46,909 nt of DNA from Lentisphaerae bacterium GWF2_44_16. Its GTDB lineage: Bacteria > Verrucomicrobiota > Lentisphaeria > Victivallales > GWF2-45-14. The stretch covers positions 1 to 46,909 of the forward strand of contig MHBF01000068.1 in NCBI GenBank assembly GCA_001803225.1, in the 5' to 3' direction. Position numbers and translations under genes: made by a program. Of this stretch, positions 7,969 through 39,462 are shown one piece after another; positions within the stretch are counted from its first letter, which is position 1; every line of letters begins with the position of its first letter. The notes beneath the pieces are model-generated. The model was not told the origin of the DNA. It ran no database searches and saw nothing but the letters and a program-made list of their open reading frames with translations.

Positions 7969-8661
7969 TCACCAGCTGGCATCGTGCCAGAAGCCGTCCG
8001 CTCCGCCGGAATAGCTTCCTGTCAGCACTGCTTCTTTCTGTAATGGTTTCCAGCTCTCGACGTGGCTGTCAACAAAAACAATGTTATCAGAACTGTTTCC
8101 GTGTCTTCCTGAAAAATAATTATTTGAGAACATTGATGTAGCATGGCATGTGGCATCAGAACAATAAAGCCGTCTTGAAGGCTTTTTAACATTAGTAACT
8201 TTAGAAGCCCTGTCATAATGACTGTTCAAAGATGTTCCGTCTCCTGAACACAGAAAAGTATTAAACGAATAACTGAAATTCGGATTTCCGCCGCTTACCG
8301 CCCTATCCCCCGTTCCGTCCCGCCTTCCCGAAGGACACATGGATACCGGGGCCGGAGGGCCGACTGACGTTGATACTTTAACGGGAAAGTTGATATAAGC
8401 ACATAATGTTTGATCATATATACTTTCTGTAGCAGGACCATATAAAAAATTGCCTACAGACGAACCGCATGTACCCCAGCCATTATAATCAGAGGCGTAG
8501 TTGTCCATTGCGCTTGCCAATTGCCGCAGATTGCTCCGGCATACGCTTGACCTTGCGGCATCCCTGGCCTTGCTCAGGGACGGAAGTAAAAGACTGGCTA
8601 AAATCGCTATTATCGAAATCACTATGAGCAATTCGATGAGCGTAAATCTCCTAATCCTCAT
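7969..8661 (-). CDS. type II secretion/type IV pilin-like pseudopilin (cassette A)
   Basis: The 230-residue protein begins MRIRR and then [17 protein letters not shown], the hydrophobic N-terminal helix of type IV pilins and pseudopilins with the conserved Glu at position 5 of the mature part. The residue before the cleavage site is Arg rather than the usual Gly. A globular domain with several cysteines follows, ending in [19 protein letters not shown], a relaxed form of the H-X9-DG motif. I chose the start at 8661 because AAGGAGA lies 7 bases upstream; an earlier in-frame ATG at 8700 would overlap the end of the preceding gene. It is the last gene of a four-gene minus-strand cassette, 16 bases after the beta-helix gene, and converges on the coiled-coil gene with only a 19-base gap. 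Confidence 0.85.
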
Positions 8662-8677
8662 GATGCGTCTCCTTTCA

Positions 8678-11104
8678 TCAATAGACAAGCTTATAATCAT
8701 CCGTTATCAACAACATGTCAACGGAAAGCGTTTCACGAGGAAAAAGTCTTATATTGTGTTTCCCTTTTTTCAGGTTAAAAGGTTTGGCGGTAGTGCCAAG
8801 CGACGTGGTAGCTCCACAGCCGGACCACTTCCACTCTATGTCGCTACGGAGATGGGCCTGCCTGTTTTTTTCTTCGTCAAGAGAGATAAATACGGAATCA
8901 TGTGAGCCGAGCGGCTCCTCCGATTTGACACGGACGAATATCTGATAATCCCCGTCTTTCGGAACAGCGAAATCATAGGATAGAGACATTCCTTTTATCG
9001 CGCTGTCAAGGTAAACGCACTTTCTTTCAGAAGCCTTCTTATCTTCCATAACCTTGAAAATGTGCGGCACGGAACTCTTTTCCGCTTCAATATATAATGC
9101 GAAACCTTCACTTTTCTTCTTAATCTCCTCTTTGCCTTCCGCCTTCGCGTAAACAGTAACCGGTCTGGAATATCCGTTTTCCAGCTTTATAAGGAAAAGT
9201 CCTTTGTACAAGCCGGGCTTCTTTATTTTATCTTTGTTAATGGATATCTTGAACTGGACGTTGCTGTTTTCTTTGAATACTCCCGTTGAAGGCTCGACAG
9301 TTAACCAGTCGAAAACATTATTTTTCCTGACTTCAAAATTCCCGGAGAATCTCTCAACACCTTTCACATTCGCATTAAGGGCCTGAGAAAGAATATCCGT
9401 TCCGATATCGAACTTGAAATTGACCTGATATTTGTCGAGATAAACAGGTATCGGACGGTACGGCAGCGGCTGATTGTCTCCTGTCTGGAACGCTCCTCTG
9501 TCTGGATTTTCAGCGTTATATTTTCCAATAAAATTGTCAACGGGCTCCCCATTTTTAAGAGCGGGACTTTTTTCACTCAGTGCAAAATTTCCGTTCTCAA
9601 TACTGGCGAATTCCGGGTTCTTTCCGAAAATACCGTGAGCTTCCCAGCCTTTCTCTTTCAACTTTTCTTCCGTAGATTTAAGCAGCTCGGAACTTTTGCT
9701 GTAAATAAGGTCATAATCGAAATCATTGCCCCTCTTGAATACGCTGCCGTTAAAAAGCTCCCTTGATGAATAAAAGATATTATTTCTGGTAATGCCCCTG
9801 AGTTCTTTTCCATATTTCGCTATTCCATCCTTGTTTCCGTTGTAATGCCCATATCCGCCGAAGGCATAAACGGTATTATTGAAAACATAGCATCTGCCTC
9901 TGTCATAAAGCCCGTGACCGTTTTTGAAAGCGGAATATCCAGAGCCATCCTCATCCGCGAGATTGACGATAAGGTTCCTGAAAAGATACGAAGGCCCGAG
10001 CAGGCACGGCCCGGTGCTTATCCCGCACAATGAGCCTTCAAACTTGTTCTGAAAAACCCTGATATTCATCTGGCCTCCGTCAAGTTCTATACCGTCATCA
10101 TTTGAATAAATGAAGATATTTCCATAGATTTCGGCATCACGGAAAAAACCTCCGTTCGGCGAACCGTTCCCAATTCCCTCTACCGTGTCGTTCCATCTGT
10201 GCGCGTCACTTCCGATAAAATCATTGTACCGCAAAACTGTCCCTCCAGTGGAATGTACGGCCACGGCGTTAGGCCCGGCCGGATGCGAATACTTCCATGA
10301 ATTGGCATGTCCCCTCGGATCATGCATATAGCATCTTTCAACAACGACATTGCCGCTCTTGGAAATATTTACCCCGGCGTCATTATTAATAGAATTTCCC
10401 CCCACGTAATATTTCCCGTCTTTTGCAACATCCTGCTTGCCTATTCTTCCATAACCTGAAATATCACAGTTAAGCACCCTTATATTCTGTGCGTCTTCCA
10501 GGGAAATACCATGTCTTGCGCCGCCTTCTATTTTGAGGTTTTCAAAAATTATGTATTCTCCACCCTTCACGGTTATAACGGCGTTTTTTTTATCATCGCC
10601 CTTAAGGGTGAAACCTTTATCCGATGTATATTTTATCCAGCCGTCCTTTGTTCCTTTTTCGGTAATTAGCAGTTCATTATCAAATTTAAGGTCTTTTACA
10701 TTTATAGTTTTAGCTACCGGAAGAACAGATGTCCATGTTTTGAAATTAGCGGTAAAAGTATTTTTGCCCTGATTGATTTTCAACTCGTATTCAGTATTTT
10801 CCTTGAGGTTTACAATGCAGCCGCGGAACATGGCCTTATCGGTATAAATAGTTTTTCCTGTTGTTCTGTTCCCCAGATATTCACCAAGTTCTTTTTCAGG
10901 TATCGGCACGAGCTCAAAAGCCTTATTCCATTTGTCGCTTCCTTTTTCTCTGAATTCAGTAACGCATGGCGTTTGCGTGTCAGCGGCTTCAAAATATATC
11001 CCGCAGGACTGGAAGAGCGGAACGGCCGTAAGCTTGTTATCCCCGGCCATAATAATTCCAGACATACAGAAAATCCCGATCAGCAACATTGATAATTTTC
11101 TCAT
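8678..11104 (-). CDS. secreted right-handed parallel beta-helix protein, probable polysaccharide lyase-like
   Basis: The 808-residue protein has a signal peptide ([20 protein letters not shown]), an N-terminal domain of fibronectin type III character ([21 protein letters not shown]), and a long run of beta-helix rungs from about residue 140 to 480 ([40 protein letters not shown]). A region near 575-660 ([13 protein letters not shown] ... [11 protein letters not shown]) looks like a BACON-type domain, and the last ~140 residues (YIEAEKSS ... GDYQIFVRV ... KGKHNIRLF) resemble a carbohydrate-binding module. It is probably a pectin-type lyase or hydrolase, given the upstream rhamnogalacturonan-esterase-like gene, but catalytic residues could not be assigned. 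AGGAG lies 9 bases before the ATG; the esterase gene ends 23 bases upstream. Confidence 0.8.
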
Positions 11105-11127
11105 GCGTTTTTACTCCTGTGATTAAA

Positions 11128-11820
11128 TTATTTCAAATATTTTTTCAATTCCGAGTCTGTTTTTTTCAAGTCTTCGATTATCAACTGGGCCATTTTATCG
11201 GCGCCTTCCGGAGAGAAGTGCGTTCTATCTCCGGGTTTGTTTGCCATGTATTTGGATTTCTCCTCGCCCAGTTCCTGCACTAGTTTTCCGCTGGACGCAT
11301 GAAGGTCTATAATGAGAATACCTTTTTCCTTAGCGACTTCTTTCATGGCGTTAGCGTAAGGAAGCAGGTTGTCCGCGAGTTTTCCATCTTTAAAGGTTCT
11401 CCTGTACATGGGGGTTATGAAAATTATTTTTGCTCCTGTTTTCTTTGCGTCATCCGCGAATTTTCTCAGATTGTCCTTGTAATCAGTGGCGGCGTCAGTG
11501 GCTTCCGGTCTGTCCTTCGCATGCGAATCATTATGCCCGAACTGCACAAGTATATAGCCGGGTTTCGAATCCAGAAGCTTCTGCCAGTCGCCCTTTTCCT
11601 GAAAGGTTTTCGTGCTTCTTCCGCTGATGGCGAAATTTTCAATACTTACATTGTCTTTAAAATATTTCCCTATAAGCTGTCCCCATCCGGCAATTTCCGG
11701 TTTCGTATAGGACGCTACCGTAGAATCACCGGCAATAGATATCTTTATTTTTTTCATATCCGCCTGACAAAGCTCCGTTGTCATGCACAAGGCACACAGC
11801 ATAAAAATCTTTCCGCCCAT
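11128..11820 (-). CDS. secreted SGNH/GDSL esterase, rhamnogalacturonan acetylesterase-like (CE12)
   Basis: The four SGNH blocks are visible: nucleophile in IAGDSTVASY (S33), oxyanion Gly in ISGRSTKTF (G67), Asn in QFGHNDSH (N97), and the Asp-x-x-His pair in GDRTHFSPEG (D198, H201). The order and the text around each block match carbohydrate esterase family 12, which removes acetyl groups from pectin-type backbones. A signal peptide precedes (residues 1-20, ending ELCQA). At 230 residues it is a single-domain enzyme. It lies between the regulator gene (21 bases upstream) and the beta-helix gene (23 bases downstream), so deacetylation before backbone cleavage is a reasonable reading. AAAGGTG lies 5 bases before the ATG. 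Confidence 0.88.
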   Translation of the reverse strand: MGGKIFMLCALCMTTELCQADMKKIKISIAGDSTVASYTKPEIAGWGQLIGKYFKDNVSIENFAISGRSTKTFQEKGDWQKLLDSKPGYILVQFGHNDSHAKDRPEATDAATDYKDNLRKFADDAKKTGAKIIFITPMYRRTFKDGKLADNLLPYANAMKEVAKEKGILIIDLHASSGKLVQELGEEKSKYMANKPGDRTHFSPEGADKMAQLIIEDLKKTDSELKKYLK

Positions 11821-11841
11821 AAAACACCTTTTCTTTTCAAA

Positions 11842-13185
11842 TTATAATTTTTCAGTATTATTATGTTTTTTTATATTTAAGAATATTCTTACGGCATCCG
11901 CCAGTTCTCGAGTGGCTTTTTTAATATTTTCGCTATTATTGAGGATTTGTCTTATTCCGTCATTAATCATAGCGCAAAGTTCAGGGGAATCGATATTGTA
12001 TTGGGCCGATGTCTTTGAAGCTTCAGTTAGAAACAGGGCGTCTCTCGGATCTTCAATATCTATGCTTTTGAAAGCTGATGATTTCCTTATCGGTATGCCG
12101 TAGGCTTCAGCTCCTATAAAATCCTGCACCTCTTCTGAAAGCATGAGCCTCACAAATTCCTCCGCCGTCTGATAATCAGTACAGGTGTTGCGAATACATA
12201 TAAGGTCCGTCGCCTGTGCGGAAATATCCCTGCCGCCTTCTATAAAAGGAATAGGGACAGTCGCCCAGTTTTTGAATTTTGACCGCTTTATGAACGGCAT
12301 TATCTCTCTCGGCTCTATGAAAAACGCCAGTTCGCCCTTGCAGAACTCTCTGACATAATCAGGATAAGGTCTGTTTCCGTCATAATTCAGCTCCTTTTTC
12401 AAGCATGATAAGAGTTCCAAGGCGTATTGAGTACGCGGGTGATCTATCATGACCATGTCTTCGCGTTCCGGGTCCATCAGGCAGGCACCTGCTCTGAAAA
12501 TGATATTTATCCAAAGACTGGGCGCGGAATGCCAATCAAAAATTTTTTCAGAGGGTAACGTCTTTTTAAGCTTTCTTACAATTACAAGAAAGTCATCCCA
12601 TGTCCAGCCGGGGCGAGGAAAAGAAACCCCTGCTTTTTTAAGCAGTTCGGGATTATAAAACATCACTCTCGGAGAAAAAATAAAAGGTATGCCGGGAAGC
12701 CTGCCGTTAATGTAGAACGTCTTGAACGGATGTGTGAAGAAGACTGACTTGTCCGGATAACACTTGTCAAAAATAGGAGCAAGATCAAGATAATCCCTGC
12801 TTTCGCTCTGCACAGTAACCGTAGTCCGAAGTTCAAATATGCTTCTCCTGAATTTTTCCCGTACCCTGAGCTGGGGGAGTTTTTCGGCGAATATCTTTTC
12901 AAGCCCGGAAAGCCAAGGAAGGCCGAAATACGTTTTGAATGCCGTAAAATTTGACTGAAGTATCCTGTTCTGCCATTCGTGCTGAACAAAGGTACCGCGT
13001 CTGGGAACAGCCTCCAGAATGCCGTCGCGCACCAGTTGTTCCAGTGCCTGCTGAACTTTCATGAAAGAGATTTTCAAAGTGCCGGAAATTTCACGGGCCC
13101 CCGGAAGTTTTTGGCCCGGCTTCAGTTCTCCGCCTTCCAGCCGGTCAAGTATATAATTTCTTACTTTGAGAGCTTTGTCTTCCAT
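11842..13185 (-). CDS. GntR-type wHTH fused to an extracellular solute-binding-like domain (regulator)
   Basis: Residues 1-70 are a GntR winged helix-turn-helix (LKVRNYILDRLEGGELKPGQ, AREISGTLKISFMKVQQALE, DGILEAVPRRGTFV). The remaining ~370 residues look like a family 1/8 ABC sugar-binding protein (LPGIPFIFSPRVMFYNPELLKKAGV, GWTWDDFLVIVRKLKKT, ELAFFIEPREIMPFI, AEEFVRLMLSEEVQDFIG). There is no signal peptide, so the sugar-binding fold sits in the cytoplasm as the ligand sensor of a one-component regulator, in place of the more usual UTRA, FCD or LacI-type domain. It is the first gene of the cassette, 21 bases before the esterase, and its own promoter has a consensus core overlapped by a short palindrome. 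Ligand unknown, probably an oligosaccharide. Confidence 0.85.
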   Translation of the reverse strand: MEDKALKVRNYILDRLEGGELKPGQKLPGAREISGTLKISFMKVQQALEQLVRDGILEAVPRRGTFVQHEWQNRILQSNFTAFKTYFGLPWLSGLEKIFAEKLPQLRVREKFRRSIFELRTTVTVQSESRDYLDLAPIFDKCYPDKSVFFTHPFKTFYINGRLPGIPFIFSPRVMFYNPELLKKAGVSFPRPGWTWDDFLVIVRKLKKTLPSEKIFDWHSAPSLWINIIFRAGACLMDPEREDMVMIDHPRTQYALELLSCLKKELNYDGNRPYPDYVREFCKGELAFFIEPREIMPFIKRSKFKNWATVPIPFIEGGRDISAQATDLICIRNTCTDYQTAEEFVRLMLSEEVQDFIGAEAYGIPIRKSSAFKSIDIEDPRDALFLTEASKTSAQYNIDSPELCAMINDGIRQILNNSENIKKATRELADAVRIFLNIKKHNNTEKL

Positions 13186-13205: not shown

Positions 13206-13234
13206 ATTATAACACAAAGCCATGACCATGTCAA
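13206..13234 (-). promoter_or_regulatory. consensus sigma-70 promoter of cassette A
   Basis: Read on the minus strand, TTGACA (13229-13234) and TATAAT (13206-13211) are both perfect and 17 bases apart. The predicted transcript starts about 14 bases before the regulator ATG at 13185, with GGGGA as ribosome site. Confidence 0.75.
13223..13233. promoter_or_regulatory. candidate operator, copy 1 (TGACCATGTCA)
   Basis: This hyphenated palindrome (TGAC-CAT-GTCA) overlaps the -35 hexamer of the cassette A promoter. A near-identical copy lies 54 bases away, about five helical turns, as expected for paired operators. Confidence 0.45.
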
Positions 13235-16380: not shown

Positions 16381-17502
16381 ATGGACGAGACTTTTCAGAA
16401 TGTACACCGATACCAAAAAATAACGGAAAAGATAAAATCGCTCATCAATTCCGGCAAGCTTAAACCCGGCGAAAGGGTGCCGTCCGTAGAAGAAATAAAA
16501 GATACTTACAACGTCAGTCATATCACAGCGATGAGAGTTTTCAAAGACCTCTCATGCGAAGGGCTCATTCATCTGATAAGAGGAAAAGGCTACTTCGTTT
16601 CCGACTCGAAAAGGTCTTCAGTCAATAAGAAGTGTATTGGCGCCATGTTAAGAACATCGCGCATGTACACCTACTTTGATAATTTCCTTAACGATATGAA
16701 CGCCGGCATCCATAGGGAATGCCTTTGCAACGGCTACGACATACTTTATCCACATGCCGTAATATCAATATCAGAAAGCGAACTTTTCATGGATAAAAAC
16801 GCTTCTGAGGAAATAATCAGGGCCGCTGTAAACACTGAAGAAAAAGTTGACGGCTTTATCTTTGACGGCTGCGTACCGGATGACGTCATTGAAAAAATCC
16901 TGGAAAAAGTCAGCAAACCAATTGTAATCGTTGACAGAAAATCAAAACTCCCCGTTGACTCCGTTTATTCCGATAATACAAAGGTTACCAAAGCGACAGC
17001 GGAAATGACAATAAAAATGGGTTATGAACATTTCATAGTCCTGAGAAGCTGTAATCATAAGGCGTCCATCAAAGAACGCGTTTCCGCTTTTCTTGAAACT
17101 CTGAATTCAGCAAAAATATCAAAGTCCAATATACATATAATAGAAGGCTCCAATATAAAGCACTGGGACATTATTTTTCAGGAGTTAATAGAAATCAGAA
17201 AATCACTGCCGGAAAAAGCCAGAATACTGTTGTTTGCCCCGACAGAGTCAACCGCAAGATATTTCTGCGATAAATTTCCTGAATATAATATTACTCCAGG
17301 CAAAGATTTAGGCATCTTGAGCTACGAGGGAAAAAGTTTTGCCTATTACAAGGAGCCTGAGCTGACTACAATAAAAATCGACCCTGACAAAATGGGACGA
17401 AAAGCGGTGAATGTGCTTATAGACAGAATTAGCGGCAAAAACCAGGGAAAAGTTTCAGAACACGTTGTCGAAGTCAACTTATCAATGGGAAAGACAATAT
17501 GA
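16381..17502 (+). CDS. GntR wHTH with LacI-type sugar-binding domain (transcriptional regulator)
   Basis: Residues 1-75 form a GntR winged helix-turn-helix (YQKITEKIKSLINSGKLKPG, SVEEIKDTYNVSHITAMRVF, LIRGKGYFVSD). From about residue 82 the protein has a LacI/GalR-like periplasmic-binding fold: IGAMLRTSRMYTYFDNFLND, KVDGFIFDGCVPDDVIEKIL, PIVIVDRKSKLPVDSVYSDN, and the late KIDPDKMGRKAVNVLIDRI block. It should bind a sugar and control the genes that follow, a pseudopilin (overlapping by 4 bases) and a large beta-helix protein. AAAGGA lies 7 bases before the ATG. This arrangement matches the AraR-like GntR/LacI chimeras known in Firmicutes. Confidence 0.9.
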   Translation: MDETFQNVHRYQKITEKIKSLINSGKLKPGERVPSVEEIKDTYNVSHITAMRVFKDLSCEGLIHLIRGKGYFVSDSKRSSVNKKCIGAMLRTSRMYTYFDNFLNDMNAGIHRECLCNGYDILYPHAVISISESELFMDKNASEEIIRAAVNTEEKVDGFIFDGCVPDDVIEKILEKVSKPIVIVDRKSKLPVDSVYSDNTKVTKATAEMTIKMGYEHFIVLRSCNHKASIKERVSAFLETLNSAKISKSNIHIIEGSNIKHWDIIFQELIEIRKSLPEKARILLFAPTESTARYFCDKFPEYNITPGKDLGILSYEGKSFAYYKEPELTTIKIDPDKMGRKAVNVLIDRISGKNQGKVSEHVVEVNLSMGKTI

Positions 17503-18134
17503 AAAAAAGATATTGGCCCAAATTCACACTGATAGAGTTACTAATTGTTATTTCCATAATAGCTATTCTCGCGGCAATGCTCCTGCCCGCGCTTTCAAGA
17601 GCAAAAAAAGTAACATATAAAAGTTCATGCATGAGCAAACTGAAACAGATCGGCACCGCGTCTTTCTCCTATGCCGATGATTTCAACGGACAGTTTCCCA
17701 TGTATTGGTCCTGTCTCGGGGAAGGCGGATATCTTCCCTACAGCAACTATACGATATCCACAAACGCAGGAGAAGACGCAATTCAGGCTTTTAAGAAAAA
17801 AGCGGCAATTCTTCATTGCCCGGAAGATACTGTTTTCGGGTATATTTCAGGAAACTGGTGGTACTGCACAAGCTATGCCAATAACCACTATCTAAGCCAA
17901 GACCCTGAAGCCCCGAAAATCAGCCGGGGCAAAAATCCGTCCGGCATCATATGGGTAATCGACAGCACATCCAAAAAATTCTCTTCCGCCACCTCATTCT
18001 GTCCATTAAATCTCGGAGGGAACAGGCATTTCAACGGCTGGAATGCCCTATTCGTTGATGGGCATGTAGAATGGGGCACAAGCTCAAAATTTGAGATAGG
18101 TCCCGGTGGAACTAATATTTACCCGGTACAATAG
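17499..18134 (+). CDS. type II secretion/type IV pilin-like pseudopilin (cassette B)
   Basis: The ATG overlaps the TGA of the regulator (ATGA), so translation is coupled. MKKRYWPK precedes [19 protein letters not shown], the pilin-type N-terminal helix; the residue at -1 is Lys, not Gly. The 211-residue product has a globular domain with SYADDFNGQFPMYWSCLG and ends with an exact H-X9-DG motif, RHFNGWNALFVDGHVEW, typical of the numerous Lentisphaerae/Planctomycetes pseudopilins. Its N-terminal helix is almost identical to that of the cassette A pseudopilin, whereas the globular parts differ. It lies between a sugar-responsive regulator and a giant secreted beta-helix protein, suggesting a role in display or export of that protein. 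Confidence 0.88.
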   Translation: MKKRYWPKFTLIELLIVISIIAILAAMLLPALSRAKKVTYKSSCMSKLKQIGTASFSYADDFNGQFPMYWSCLGEGGYLPYSNYTISTNAGEDAIQAFKKKAAILHCPEDTVFGYISGNWWYCTSYANNHYLSQDPEAPKISRGKNPSGIIWVIDSTSKKFSSATSFCPLNLGGNRHFNGWNALFVDGHVEWGTSSKFEIGPGGTNIYPVQ

Positions 18135-18236
18135 AGAAAATATTAAAATCGCAAATGAATGAACCAAAAGAGTTAAAAGACGGTAATATAAGAAATACAG
18201 ATATTTGAAATAAGATACAAAAGGAGAATGAGAAAA

Positions 18237-21200
18237 ATGAAACTGCTGAAAACACTTTTCGCCGGAATTACCCTCTTCGCGCTGAACTGTTACTGCAATG
18301 AGGAAAAGAATCCCGGCCTTGCTGAATTTTCCAAGCCCGCTCAAATAGATGAAAGCAAATACGGCGCAGGTACTCTGAAGGAAACGGGAAAGACTTTTTA
18401 TGTTTCACTTAACGGAGATGATAAAAACGACGGGCTTTCCGAAAATACATCATGGCGGACTGTGCGTTACGCATGTCCTCTGTTAAAAGCGGGAGACACT
18501 CTGATAATATCGGAGGGCGAATACAACGAAAATGAAATGGATATAAACGTCAAAGAAGGCAGCACAGATTTTATGGGAAATTCAGGCCTTCCGGGAAAAC
18601 CGATACGCATTATGGCCGCTCCAAATGCCCGTGTAATAATAAGAGGCGCTAAAAAATTTGTTCTGAACAAAAAATCGGAAGCTGCTCAATTCACTTATGA
18701 AATCTCCTGCAAAGAAAAAACCATCCCTTGCATATGGGAAGCCGGAACCCAGATAAAATTGCAGAATTCCGGTTCCATTGAAAAAACTGAAGAATTGCCT
18801 GGCACGTATTATTACGACACGGAAAAACATAAACTCTATGTTCATTTTACTGACAGCAACTTCTTTCCGGGACGTTCAATATATATTGAAAAATCCAGAG
18901 TGGGACTGCGTATTCACGGCAGTTATGTAGAAGTGAAAGGAATATGGTTCATGAACTACGGCAGCGCCATACTCATGCGCCCTAATTACGTAAATGAACC
19001 CAAAACTAAAGAAGAAAGAGACATAGGAAACAATAAAGCTGAACATATCACCATCGAAGACTGCGGTTTCTTCGCGAATTCTACAGTAGGTATTGAAGCA
19101 TATCAGGTTCAGTGGTGTCTCTTCAAAAATAATATCGGAGAGAAAAACGGCGACAGAGGAACAATAATTACGCACACCGATAAATTTCAGGACAATCTGA
19201 TAAAAGGAAATATATTCGGTTCCTCCGATGAGACCATGCGCCTGATAGGAAGCAACAATGTCAATTACGCAATCAGTCACTATGGCGGCGGAATGGGCGA
19301 AAGAAACCACATAATAGAAAATATTATAGATGACAAACTATCCTTCCGCTGGAAACCGATTTGCAAAGAAAGCATCATGGAAGACAATGTCCTTACCGGC
19401 ATCCTATATATAGAGGGCATTACTCATGACAGAATAACGGTTCCCAAAGAAAGGATAATCATTCGCAATAACGTAATACTTGGAAAAATACACTGGCCCG
19501 GGAACGAATTTGAGAAAAATAATCCTTTCGCAAACAGGCTTGATACGGATAAAATTTTCATCAACAACTTCATGCCGTTCAGCAATGAAAAAACAATAAA
19601 TGAAGCCCTTTTCGCAGATACAGCATACTATGATTACCGCTTACAGGAAGACAGCCCTTTAAAAGGAAAAAGCATGGGCGGCGGTGACGTTGGCAGGCAT
19701 CGTTATCCGCAGGGTAAGGTTCTTTTTGTCGGCGCAAACGGCAACGATACAGCATCAGGACTTAGCATTAAAGGCGCATGGAAATCCCTGAAAAAAGCAG
19801 CGGAGAGCCTTTGTCCCGGCGACACACTTTATATCATGCCCGGAAAATATGATGAAACACTTTCAATATCCGCAAATGGGACAAAGGACGCCCCTGTATT
19901 TATACGTGCGCACAGCAAAGGAAAAGTCCTTCTCAAAGGCGTTAAAATCAATGTACCTGCTATTGTTGAAGGAATAACAGTGTCAGGGGGAACAAACGCT
20001 TTTGACATTAAAGCCCCTGGCGTAACATTGAAACGCTGTACGGCATGCAATGCTCCGGAAAATGGAATATCGGCACAGAACGCAAAAGATTTATCCATCA
20101 GCAACTGCACCATCACCGGAAACAAAACTGGTATTACACTTAAAAATTCAAAAGAAGCTTCAATCAGGGATTCCATAATAGCGTTTAATAAAAACGAACT
20201 GGAAATATCGGAAGATTCAAAGCAGGGCTATCATGCGGGCCACAACATATATTATGGCGACAACATTGATAAAAATAAATTTGCCGGAGAATTCGGAAGC
20301 ATTGTCGCCGATCCGCTTTTCGTCAATGCTAAAAACAGCGACTACCGCATTGCGTGGAACAGTCCCGCGGCATCCGTTGATGCCTTCAACTCTCCCGCGG
20401 GAGCGGCAACTGTCTCAGGGAAACCTCTGCAAATTTCGGATATCAGCGCAAACTTCATAAATGCGGATTCCGCCGTAATAAAATGGAAAACACCCGTTGA
20501 TGATACCACCGCTTATGTTGAATACTGGAAGAAAGGCAAAACAAAAAAACAGCGTTCCAATGACCCTGAACAAGGGACAAAACATATTGCCGGCCTTTCG
20601 GAACTTGAAAAAGACAGCGTTTACGAATTCCGAATACACGCGGCAGGGCGCAGAGGCGGACACGCTGTCAGCGAGGTGAAGGAATTCAGGACGAAAAAGG
20701 AGATAAGACTCCCCGCGACATATTATCTCTCTCCTGACGGCAATGACAATGCGGATGGAAAAAGCTTGAAGACCGCATGGAAAACAATAAGCAACGCGTG
20801 TGAAGCCGCCAATCCAGGCGACACCATTCTGATAAATCCGGGAAAATATACAAATGCCATAATACCACTGAAAACAGGGCTCCCCGGAAAACCGATAACC
20901 TTCAAAAAGAACGGAAAAGGACAGGCAATACTGGACGGCAATGGCGTGTTGTCCCCGATTGTATATCTGGAAAAGAAAAACCATATCGTGATTGACGGCC
21001 TTACTTTCGATAATCTGGAAGCCAAGAACAGAAACGGTGTAATAAAACTCTCCCATTGTAAGGATATAAAGATACTGAATTGCAGGGCCGGAAATCAGAA
21101 AGCGGTCAGCTGGCTGAGCGGTCCATTCTTTCGCGCAAATGGATCACGTGATTTGACTGTAGAAAGAAATGTATGCTGGGGCTCAGATTATCCGATAGCC

Positions 21201-21635
21201 ATCGGTGAAAGCGAAAATGTGCTGATTAAAAATAACACTATAGTCGATGGAACTATGTGGGCTTGCAGTATATGGGGAGGAAACAATATCAGCATTATCA
21301 ACAATCTCTGGTACAGGCCGTGCATACCCATAAAATCAAACCAGGCAATATCTTTCACTGGAATATCAAAAACAAAAATCATCTGTGATTACAACCTTTT
21401 CTATTCCCCATGTCCCAACCACAAAGTCGGCTGGATAAGAAACACTTTAGGCGAAACACTCATTACAGGAGACAGTCTCAAACAATGGCAGGAACAGACG
21501 GAATACGACAAGCACAGTATTCAGGCTGACCCGCTTTTCGTTGACTATGAAAAAGGAGATTTCCGTCTGAAAGAAAACAGCCCGGCCATCGGCAAGGGAA
21601 AAGACGGCGAAACAATTGGGGCGTCTTGCAAATAA
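18237..21635 (+). CDS. giant secreted protein with three parallel beta-helix modules and one FN3 domain
   Basis: A signal peptide (MKLLKTLFAGITLFALNCYC) is followed by three copies of the same plan: a DUF1565-like start of type 'YVSxxGxDxxxGxxxxxxWRTxxxA ... GDTLxIxxGxY', then right-handed beta-helix rungs. The starts lie near residues 53, 492 and 826. A fibronectin type III domain (SDISANFINADSAVIKWKT ... SVYEFRIHAAG) separates modules 2 and 3. Such proteins bind or cleave pectin, alginate or similar polymers outside the cell. An in-frame ATG at 18228 lies only 1 base from the AAGGAG site; the ATG at 18237, 10 bases away, is better and gives a cleaner signal peptide. It is the third gene of the regulator-pseudopilin cassette, about 100 bases after the pseudopilin. 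Confidence 0.82.
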   Translation: MKLLKTLFAGITLFALNCYCNEEKNPGLAEFSKPAQIDESKYGAGTLKETGKTFYVSLNGDDKNDGLSENTSWRTVRYACPLLKAGDTLIISEGEYNENEMDINVKEGSTDFMGNSGLPGKPIRIMAAPNARVIIRGAKKFVLNKKSEAAQFTYEISCKEKTIPCIWEAGTQIKLQNSGSIEKTEELPGTYYYDTEKHKLYVHFTDSNFFPGRSIYIEKSRVGLRIHGSYVEVKGIWFMNYGSAILMRPNYVNEPKTKEERDIGNNKAEHITIEDCGFFANSTVGIEAYQVQWCLFKNNIGEKNGDRGTIITHTDKFQDNLIKGNIFGSSDETMRLIGSNNVNYAISHYGGGMGERNHIIENIIDDKLSFRWKPICKESIMEDNVLTGILYIEGITHDRITVPKERIIIRNNVILGKIHWPGNEFEKNNPFANRLDTDKIFINNFMPFSNEKTINEALFADTAYYDYRLQEDSPLKGKSMGGGDVGRHRYPQGKVLFVGANGNDTASGLSIKGAWKSLKKAAESLCPGDTLYIMPGKYDETLSISANGTKDAPVFIRAHSKGKVLLKGVKINVPAIVEGITVSGGTNAFDIKAPGVTLKRCTACNAPENGISAQNAKDLSISNCTITGNKTGITLKNSKEASIRDSIIAFNKNELEISEDSKQGYHAGHNIYYGDNIDKNKFAGEFGSIVADPLFVNAKNSDYRIAWNSPAASVDAFNSPAGAATVSGKPLQISDISANFINADSAVIKWKTPVDDTTAYVEYWKKGKTKKQRSNDPEQGTKHIAGLSELEKDSVYEFRIHAAGRRGGHAVSEVKEFRTKKEIRLPATYYLSPDGNDNADGKSLKTAWKTISNACEAANPGDTILINPGKYTNAIIPLKTGLPGKPITFKKNGKGQAILDGNGVLSPIVYLEKKNHIVIDGLTFDNLEAKNRNGVIKLSHCKDIKILNCRAGNQKAVSWLSGPFFRANGSRDLTVERNVCWGSDYPIAIGESENVLIKNNTIVDGTMWACSIWGGNNISIINNLWYRPCIPIKSNQAISFTGISKTKIICDYNLFYSPCPNHKVGWIRNTLGETLITGDSLKQWQEQTEYDKHSIQADPLFVDYEKGDFRLKENSPAIGKGKDGETIGASCK

Positions 21636-37743: not shown

Positions 37744-39462
37744 ATGAGTATTAAAGACTGGTACGGAAAAAAACCTTCTCTGGCCATAGCCTCAGACCAC
37801 GGCGGCTATGAAATGAAAAATTCAATCCTCGCGGCAATATCAGCCAAAGGCATCAACGCCGTAGATTACGGCCCCTGCTCTTTCGACGCCGAAGACGATT
37901 ATTCGGACTTCGCCGGAAAACTCGGCCTTGCCGTTTCAAAAGGCGAAATAGACTGCGGCATACTGATATGCCGTTCCGGCATCGGCATGTGCATAAACGC
38001 AAACCGCTTTCACAATGTCCGCGCCGCCCTCGTTTATGAAGAAAAAACAGCCAGGTTGAGCCGCGAACACAACGCTTCCAATATTCTCGTTCTGAACGCG
38101 ACCTACACAGACCAGAAAAAAGCCGAAGCCATCATCGATACATGGCTGAATACCCCATACAGCAACGCCGAACGCCACACAAGGCGCCTTGAAAAAATCG
38201 AAGTGAACTCCTATGACGATATCGCGGCAGTACGCAATGTAGATCCGGAAATAGCCGGGTTCCTTGACAAGGAAGCCTCCCGTCAGGATGAGGGCATTGA
38301 ACTTATCGCATCCGAAAACTTCACCAGCGCCGCCATCCGTGCCGCTCAGGGTTCGGTACTTACAAACAAGTACGCCGAAGGCTATCCCGGAAAACGCTAC
38401 TACAACGGCTGTGAATTTGTTGACGAAGTCGAAAAAATCGCCATTGAACGCGCCTGCAAGCTCTTCGGAGCGGAAGCCGCAAACGTTCAGGCGCATTCAG
38501 GCAGTCAGGCAAATATGGCCGCTTACTTCGCCATCATCAAACCCGGCGATACTGTGCTGGCAATGGACCTCGCGCACGGCGGGCATCTCACTCACGGGCA
38601 TCCCATGAACTTCAGCGGCATGCTCTACAAAATCGTCGGCTACGGCGTTGACCCAAAAACCGAAATGATAAATTACGACGAAGTCGAAAGGCTCGCGAAA
38701 GAGCATAATCCCAAAGTTATAGTCGCCGGGGCCAGCGCATACCCCAGAACAATTGATTTCCCGCGCCTCCGCGCCATCGCGGATAAAGTCGGAACTAAAC
38801 TTTTCGTCGATATGGCGCATATAGCAGGGCTCGTCGCCACAGGCGAACACCCCAGCCCCGTCCCTTACGCAGACATAGTTACGACGACCACACACAAAAC
38901 CCTCAGAGGCCCCCGTTCAGGGCTCATCCTCTGCAAAGAACAGTATATAAAGGATATAAACTCAAAGCTTTTCCCCGGACTTCAGGGCGGCCCGATGATG
39001 CATACCATCGCGGCAAAGGCAATATGCTTCCATGAAGCGATGTCCCCGGAATTCAAGCTCTACCAGAAACAGGTAAGACTTAACGCAGTGAAGCTGGCGC
39101 AGGCACTTACTGAAAGAGGTTTCAGGATAGTTTCCGGCGGCACGGACAACCATCTCATGCTCGTCGATCTCCGTCCGAAAAAAGCCACAGGCAAGGAAGT
39201 AGCGACCATCCTCGATGTCGCCGCCATCACGGTTAACAAAAACATGATACCTTTCGATCCTGAAAAACCCTTCGTCACAAGCGGCATCAGGATAGGCACT
39301 CCGGCCGTTACCACGCGCGGCATGAAAGAGGACGCAATGGTTAAAATAGCCGATTTCATAAACAGGGCCGTTGACAACAGACAGAATGAAACAGCGCTGA
39401 AGGAAATAGCCGCCGAAGTAAAGGCATTCACAAGAAAATATCCGATGCCCCGTTTCATCTGA
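37744..39462 (+). CDS. RpiB-GlyA fusion: ribose-5-phosphate isomerase B + serine hydroxymethyltransferase
   Basis: Residues 1-155 are Rpi[11 protein letters not shown] (D18, H19), [19 protein letters not shown] (C76 as candidate general base), [13 protein letters not shown], and the basic helix [10 protein letters not shown] that binds phosphate. Residues from about 164 to 572 are complete Gly[51 protein letters not shown], the PLP lysine in [12 protein letters not shown] (K385), [15 protein letters not shown] and [17 protein letters not shown]. One chain would interconvert ribose-5-P and ribulose-5-P and make methylene-tetrahydrofolate from serine. There is no stop or start at the junction. 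RpiB has CRSG where most relatives have CGTG or CGSG. It follows the phosphatase by 12 bases and precedes serS by 22. Confidence 0.93.

Follow-up and report, generated by a model that had tools for sequence, protein, structure and literature searches.

A four-gene cassette of Lentisphaerae bacterium GWF2_44_16 (assembly GCA_001803225.1, contig MHBF01000068.1, positions 7,969 to 13,185, minus strand) encodes a GntR-type sugar-sensing regulator, an esterase, a beta-helix protein, and a pilin-like protein, or pseudopilin. Across the genome, the conserved partner of such pilins is the sugar-sensing regulator and not an enzyme of the carbohydrate esterase 12 (CE12), polysaccharide lyase (PL), or beta-helix kind. 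The genome appears to hold many substrate-inducible units (well over 50), of which the cassette is one, and the best-supported reading of the sequences is that the pseudopilins of the lineage sit in sugar-regulated cassettes together with predicted exported enzymes, the pilin gene following the regulator gene. "The window" below is the whole stretch of 46,909 nucleotides that was analyzed.

Regulators and pilins across the genome and its relatives

The genome contains at least 159 prepilin-like genes, the number counted in the 2.2 Mb that were read. Because the fetched loci had been selected for pilins, regulator counts were taken from whole-genome coordinates. Regulators with the LacI-type sugar-binding domain Peripla_BP_3 (PF13377) have a same-strand pilin within 700 bp downstream in 49 of 119 cases, where 1.3 are expected, and never one on the opposite strand. 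Likewise, a same-strand pilin starts 0.3 to 1.6 kb downstream of 36 of 100 GntR-domain genes (1.9 expected, none on the opposite strand). AraC genes, which served as the control, are followed by a pilin in about 1 of 81 cases: none on the list of at least 150 pilins from the N_methyl profile search, plus one on contig C1, whose pilin the list had missed. The idea that every regulator type leads pilins was rejected because AraC genes do not, and the genome-wide counts ruled out a coincidence confined to a single operon. Random placement of pseudopilin genes, which a first-pass annotation of the window had named as speaking against its own proposal, is thus clearly not what these counts reveal.

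Seen from the pilin side, a regulator of the GntR, LacI, periplasmic binding protein (PBP), or solute-binding protein (SBP) type lies directly upstream of 59 of the 159 pilins, compared with 45 of the 1368 remaining genes in these loci (odds ratio 17, p = 4e-35). The spacing seen most often between regulator and pilin is an overlap of 4 bp. Among 95 genes of regulator size that immediately precede a pilin, Pfam identified 47 Peripla_BP_3, 38 GntR, 17 LacI, 5 SBP, and 3 ROK domains, which overlap within proteins. Each of the 12 GntR-SBP fusions sampled is the first gene of an operon in which a pilin follows as the first to third gene after it. Among the SBP_bac-type proteins seen in the fetched loci, 12 of 13 are fused to GntR (e.g., L068:5622-6974 and L094:13859-15223), which marks them as regulators and not transporter subunits.

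The usual order in the fetched loci is a regulator of 340 to 465 amino acids, a pilin of ~230 amino acids, and a large protein; the reported cassette departs from it in that the pilin stands last. Many of the large proteins are predicted to act on polysaccharides. A Sec-like signal was called heuristically in 64% of the large proteins encoded one or two genes after a pilin versus 22% of the remaining large genes of these loci (p = 7e-20). The four-gene arrangement that the first-pass annotation put forward as a system is real, although its order is not the usual one within a theme that recurs far beyond one case.

Loci of relatives were assessed by coordinates. In genome G103, which belongs to another family, a pilin is the next gene for 36 of 67 GntR genes (1.0 expected), and the same is true for 19 of 50 in G007 (0.8 expected), which represents another genus of the same family. 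G007 also possesses an orthologous cassette, composed of a GntR open reading frame (ORF) of 464 amino acids, a pilin, a beta-helix protein with 78% identity, and two more pilins; the pilin after the beta-helix gene is kept, and an extra pilin takes the place of the esterase. We also gathered, by pilin similarity alone and with crude ORF calling, 80 named loci of the Planctomycetes-Verrucomicrobia-Chlamydiae (PVC) group. A regulator lies directly upstream of the pilin in 7 of 24 Lentisphaeria loci, 1 of 28 Planctomycetes loci, and 0 of 14 Verrucomicrobia loci; both loci of Victivallis vadensis (L237 and L243) have a GntR-PBP regulator in this position. Of 99 genomes of the class, all but one (98) have the pilin family, with few members in some lineages and, by first-look counts, apparently more than 100 in many.

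The enzymes behave differently from the regulators. Carbohydrate families show the same frequency in genes remote from pilins and in genes adjacent to them (DUF4838, 5/60 versus 6/60), and since carbohydrate genes abound genome-wide, their nearness to pilins is not evidence of a link. The rhamnogalacturonan (RG)-exolyase-like proteins of L068 and L094 are alike while the neighboring pilins are not, which argues against a rigid pilin-enzyme match. In G103, beta-helix homologs occur without a nearby pilin, and the number of pilins per cassette varies, some cassettes holding two or three. Enzyme-pilin pairing as a conserved unit is weakened by this Pfam control, by the G103 loci, and by the Mantel tests described below. 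The earlier proposal tied the pilin both to CE12, PL, or beta-helix genes and to a GntR regulator: the tie to the regulator stands, while that to the enzymes finds no support in the Pfam control or in G103.

The pilin and its neighbors in the window

The cassette pilin (positions 7969 to 8661, minus strand) comprises 230 amino acids when read from the ATG at 8661, which lies behind an AGGAG and is probably the true start, rather than the ORF start at 8700. It was recognized by TIGR02532, PF07596, alignment, and an AlphaFold2 model. Like other members of the pilin superfamily, it has a short basic leader, an F-T/S-x-x-E5 motif, and a long hydrophobic N-terminal helix; its N terminus reads FTLIELL and scores 20.9 bits against TIGR02532 (cut-off 16.3). 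The DUF1559 profile PF07596 matches with an E value of 9.4e-7 and 29.6 bits (gathering score 23.3). A conserved Cys-Cys pair is present, as is a C-terminal H-X10-D (spacing 10), whose H187 and D198 are conserved in the pilin alignment. By these profiles and motifs, the protein is assigned to the DUF1559/H-X9-DG family. The AlphaFold2 model (mean predicted local distance difference test score of 75, predicted template modeling score of 0.76) shows a long N-terminal helix (residues 8 to 58) and a C-terminal domain of modest confidence. A profile search of the PDB with the pilin returned matches to pilin N termini only. A separate cluster on contig C19 (L039:3487-10763) holds about five pilin-like genes and a gene for a 920-amino-acid protein; these pilins lack the H-X9-D motif and possibly belong to another minor-pilin system.

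The regulator (positions 11842 to 13185, minus strand, 447 amino acids) is a fusion of a GntR winged helix with a sugar ABC-type solute-binding domain (Pfam: GntR PF00392, E = 6.6e-15; SBP_bac_8, 2.2e-11; SBP_bac_1, 7e-11). Its relatives in the PDB are the helix-turn-helix domain of YvoA and the arabino-oligosaccharide-binding protein 6rjy. It has no signal peptide and so should act in the cytoplasm, as a one-component sugar-responsive regulator. Upstream of it, at positions 13206 to 13234 on the minus strand, lies a sigma-70-type sequence, TTGACA-17-TATAAT with a TG before the -10 element (12/12 consensus matches), which is likely the promoter of the cassette.

The second gene (positions 11128 to 11820, minus strand) encodes an SGNH/GDSL esterase of 230 amino acids (PF13472, 2.2e-19), predicted to be exported on the basis of a heuristic signal-peptide call. 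The catalytic motifs GDST, GHND, and DRTHF are present. The best PDB match overall is YxiM (2o14, 4e-18), and the nearest characterized relative is the rhamnogalacturonan acetylesterase 1deo (75 residues aligned, E = 1e-11); motifs and similarity together classify the protein as a CE12-like esterase of the rhamnogalacturonan acetylesterase type. The third gene (positions 8678 to 11104, minus strand) encodes a right-handed beta-helix protein of 808 amino acids, predicted to be exported, with extra C-terminal domains. In Pfam it matched the generic PF13229 alone (2.6e-9) and no defined PL, GH28, or CE8 family, and a PDB sequence search yielded no relative. Among 120 genomes of the order, 25 have homologs, the G007 ortholog included. 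The sole further gene of this type in the fetched DNA (L142:4151-7332) is directly followed by a pilin with a 4-bp overlap, and a LacI regulator lies two genes upstream.

With the pilin start at 8661, the gaps between the four genes are 21, 23, and 16 bp, so that ORF coordinates and Pfam confirm the first-pass description of four minus-strand genes of these kinds with gaps of 16 to 23 bases. The substrate of the cassette is likely RG-I, the rhamnogalacturonan type of pectin: the CE12-like esterase supports this, as do the rhamnogalacturonan-exolyase-like genes in the operons of the closest paralogs of the regulator, at L068 and L094.

A second cassette lies 3 kb from the first, on the plus strand (positions 16381 to 21635), and has the order regulator, pilin, beta-helix. 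It consists of a 373-amino-acid regulator with GntR and LacI-type sugar-binding domains (16381 to 17502; PF00392, 8.8e-15; PF13377, 3.2e-13), a 211-amino-acid pseudopilin identified by pilin profile and alignment and overlapping the regulator by 4 bp (17499 to 18134), and a 1135-amino-acid beta-helix/chondroitinase-B-like protein that is predicted to be exported (18228 to 21635; PF13229, 5.7e-16; PF14592, 5.1e-13).

Elsewhere in the window, the annotated ORFs include those for prephenate dehydrogenase, PriA, serine hydroxymethyltransferase, seryl-tRNA synthetase, and ExbB/ExbD. In a single plus-strand ORF at 37744 to 39462, serine hydroxymethyltransferase is fused to a ribose/galactose isomerase domain of the RpiB type. 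No secretion genes are found among the annotated ORFs of the window, in agreement with the earlier remark that none stand beside the cassette. They are located on other contigs: C84 carries a type II secretion system (T2SS) operon with a GspG above the cut-off, a clear secretin GspD, and weaker GspH, GspI, and GspK, and C4 carries a type IV pilus (T4P) set with a PilT above the cut-off, PilC, and two PilB-like ATPases. The cassette pilins may represent extra subunits for these shared T2SS/T4P engines.

What the cassette pilins may do

We consider it fairly probable that the cassette pilin handles polymer or docks an enzyme at the cell surface, within substrate-inducible units of regulator, pilin, and enzyme. 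The regulator would repress its cassette until its sugar binds, whereupon enzymes and pilin would be produced together. The pilin would insert in the inner membrane via its N-terminal helix and be polymerized by a shared engine, T2SS or T4P, whose genes lie elsewhere, giving a filament that bears a substrate-induced C-terminal domain. This domain would handle polymer or dock an enzyme at the surface, a role comparable to that of the protein that binds glycans on the cell surface in a polysaccharide utilization locus (PUL) of Bacteroidetes. It is tempting to go further and assume that well over 100 pilin variants, many of them under their own sugar-responsive repressor, re-dress the filament of one shared pilus/T2SS engine for each polysaccharide, as a SusD-like counterpart, and that the peptidase no longer needs a glycine at position -1; this broader scheme is put forward tentatively.

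Several observations weigh against the surface role. About 60% of the pilins have no recognized regulator directly upstream. Covariation between pilin and regulator sequences is absent (Mantel r = 0.02, p = 0.24), and that between the pilin and the next protein, the enzyme, is weak (r = 0.09, p = 0.004), so that the sequences do not reveal a strict code of one pilin per substrate. The suggestion that each substrate set has its own pseudopilin accordingly holds in part: that very many pilins lie in sugar-regulated cassettes remote from secretion machinery, and that a substrate set would thus induce a pilin of its own, is well supported, while a match between pilin and enzyme finds little support in these values. 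The C-terminal domain of the pilin has no recognizable carbohydrate-binding fold; Foldseek against the PDB gave nothing significant (best match, the pilin FimA, E = 0.44), and a known fold of this kind was rejected for it. Finally, the residue before the cleavage site (position -1) is Arg, neither Gly nor Ala, and no prepilin peptidase motif turned up in a scan of the portion of the genome that was read (43%).

Known prepilins nearly all have a glycine before the F-T-x-x-E motif. In this genome, position -1 is Gly in 5 and Ala in 16 of the 159 pilins, and the remainder are spread over 17 residue types; even the true GspG has Ile. Examples without the glycine lie at positions 8661 to 8640 of the window and at L074:7087-7548. 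In the named loci, Gly(-1) was found in 1 of 28 cases in Lentisphaeria versus 33 of 47 in Verrucomicrobia and Planctomycetes (p = 6e-9). Either the prepilin peptidase of Lentisphaeria has a relaxed specificity or processing is different. Given the missing glycine and the empty peptidase scan, processing and assembly of the cassette pilin are assumed here.

The same residue bears on the proposal that the pilin does not polymerize at all and is a sensor or chaperone in the periplasm or inner membrane, for instance anchored in the membrane as a partner of either the regulator or the enzymes. The near-universal lack of Gly(-1) makes peptidase processing uncertain, and the regulator has its sugar-binding module in the cytoplasm, both of which would suit such a role. 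However, the F, T, and E5 residues and the hydrophobic helix are strongly conserved, as in polymerizing pilins, and Gly(-1) is missing from the genuine GspG of this genome as well, which points to a peptidase of altered specificity and not to a loss of processing. We regard this role as improbable. Equally small is the chance that we give to hitchhiking, in which an amplified or mobile regulator-pilin pair has spread and enzymes became attached to it with no functional link to the pilin. Although the hardly detectable co-diversification of pilins and enzymes, and the carbohydrate families being equally common away from pilins, fit this scenario, copying of the pair should make the pilin and regulator trees covary, and they do not. 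Moreover, the same adjacency is found in three regulator families (GntR-PBP, GntR-SBP, and LacI) and recurs in another bacterial family (G103), and exported proteins are enriched downstream of pilins; together these point to repeated selection and not to copying.

An unlikely explanation, if a somewhat better one than the two above, is that the pilin serves export as a dedicated adaptor, i.e., an alternative pseudopilin that, once induced, becomes part of the T2SS pseudopilus and there selects the enzymes encoded in its operon or pushes them out. The first-pass annotation read the pilin in this way, as tuning secretion; a pilus for glycan capture fits at least equally well. A classical T2SS is indeed encoded elsewhere in the genome, pilins share operons with enzymes, and the cassette enzymes carry a Sec signal more often than other genes. 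Yet the T2SS on C84 comes with pseudopilins of the G, H, I, and K kinds, the pilin C-terminal domains covary but weakly with the next enzyme, and related RG-lyase-like enzymes lie beside unrelated pilins in L068 and L094. An adaptor would also have to accommodate cassettes with two or three pilins and, in G103, others in which the enzyme has none. Export adaptation is thus our second choice for the role of the C-terminal domain. We rank surface display above it because pili-like fibers of Planctomycetes bind gold-labeled dextran (PMC5394234).

Known systems and implications

The DUF1559/H-X9-DG family (PF07596, TIGR04294) of Planctomycetes and other PVC bacteria shares with the cassette pilin the N-terminal helix, the Cys pair, and the C-terminal H-X9-D, and it has many paralogs. 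Relative to the family elsewhere, the sugar regulator directly upstream is a feature of Lentisphaeria, in which the Gly(-1) has been lost. Rhodopirellula baltica has 74 paralogs of the DUF1559 type (PMC2754498) and Planctopirus limnophila 68 (PMC10632474); these papers record the expansion without an established function.

The pseudopilins of T2SS (GspG/H/I/J/K) belong to the same superfamily, and the first 60 residues of the cassette pilin match GspG. It differs in falling short of the full-length TIGR01710 model (37 bits versus 88.85) and in being encoded outside gsp operons, in a genome that has a separate full GspG. In Verrucomicrobia, the Verru_Chthon cassette (TIGR02596 and its sisters) is reportedly a repeated cassette with pseudopilin genes; it is not known to be built around a sugar regulator, and only the N terminus of the cassette pilin matches TIGR02596 (18.8 bits, cut-off 70). 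A weak ATPase match led us to the archaeal bindosome (its ATPase model being NF053672), a pilus-type machine for sugar handling in which proteins that bind sugars carry signals of the pilin type. In the cassettes, it is the regulator and not the pilin that has a recognized sugar-binding domain, and there is no homology beyond the ATPase superfamily.

The closest parallel in organization is the PUL of Bacteroidetes (SusC/SusD, a regulator, and carbohydrate-active enzymes), which likewise groups a sensor/regulator and exported enzymes with a component of the cell surface, in inducible units repeated for each substrate; in the cassettes, the putatively surface-located pilin would be this component. 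The cassettes differ from it in their recurrent extra component, the pseudopilin, and in a cytoplasmic regulator of the GntR/LacI type. Of the PUL hallmarks, the regulator and the predicted exported enzymes are present, and carbohydrate enzymes are not enriched relative to the rest of the genome. No SusC/SusD was seen in the cassette; the genome was not searched for them. We found no description of regulator-pilin cassettes in the open-access literature.

The large pseudopilin/DUF1559 families are among the biggest paralog groups of PVC bacteria and have no assigned function. Their tight and replicated coupling to regulators in Lentisphaeria offers a testable handle, as each regulator names the condition for its pilin. 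If the proposed surface role is true, polysaccharide uptake in this class would rely on pilins induced by the substrate where other bacteria follow the SusCD logic. This would bear on glycan degradation in the gut and the sea and on how a pilus machine chooses among its subunits.

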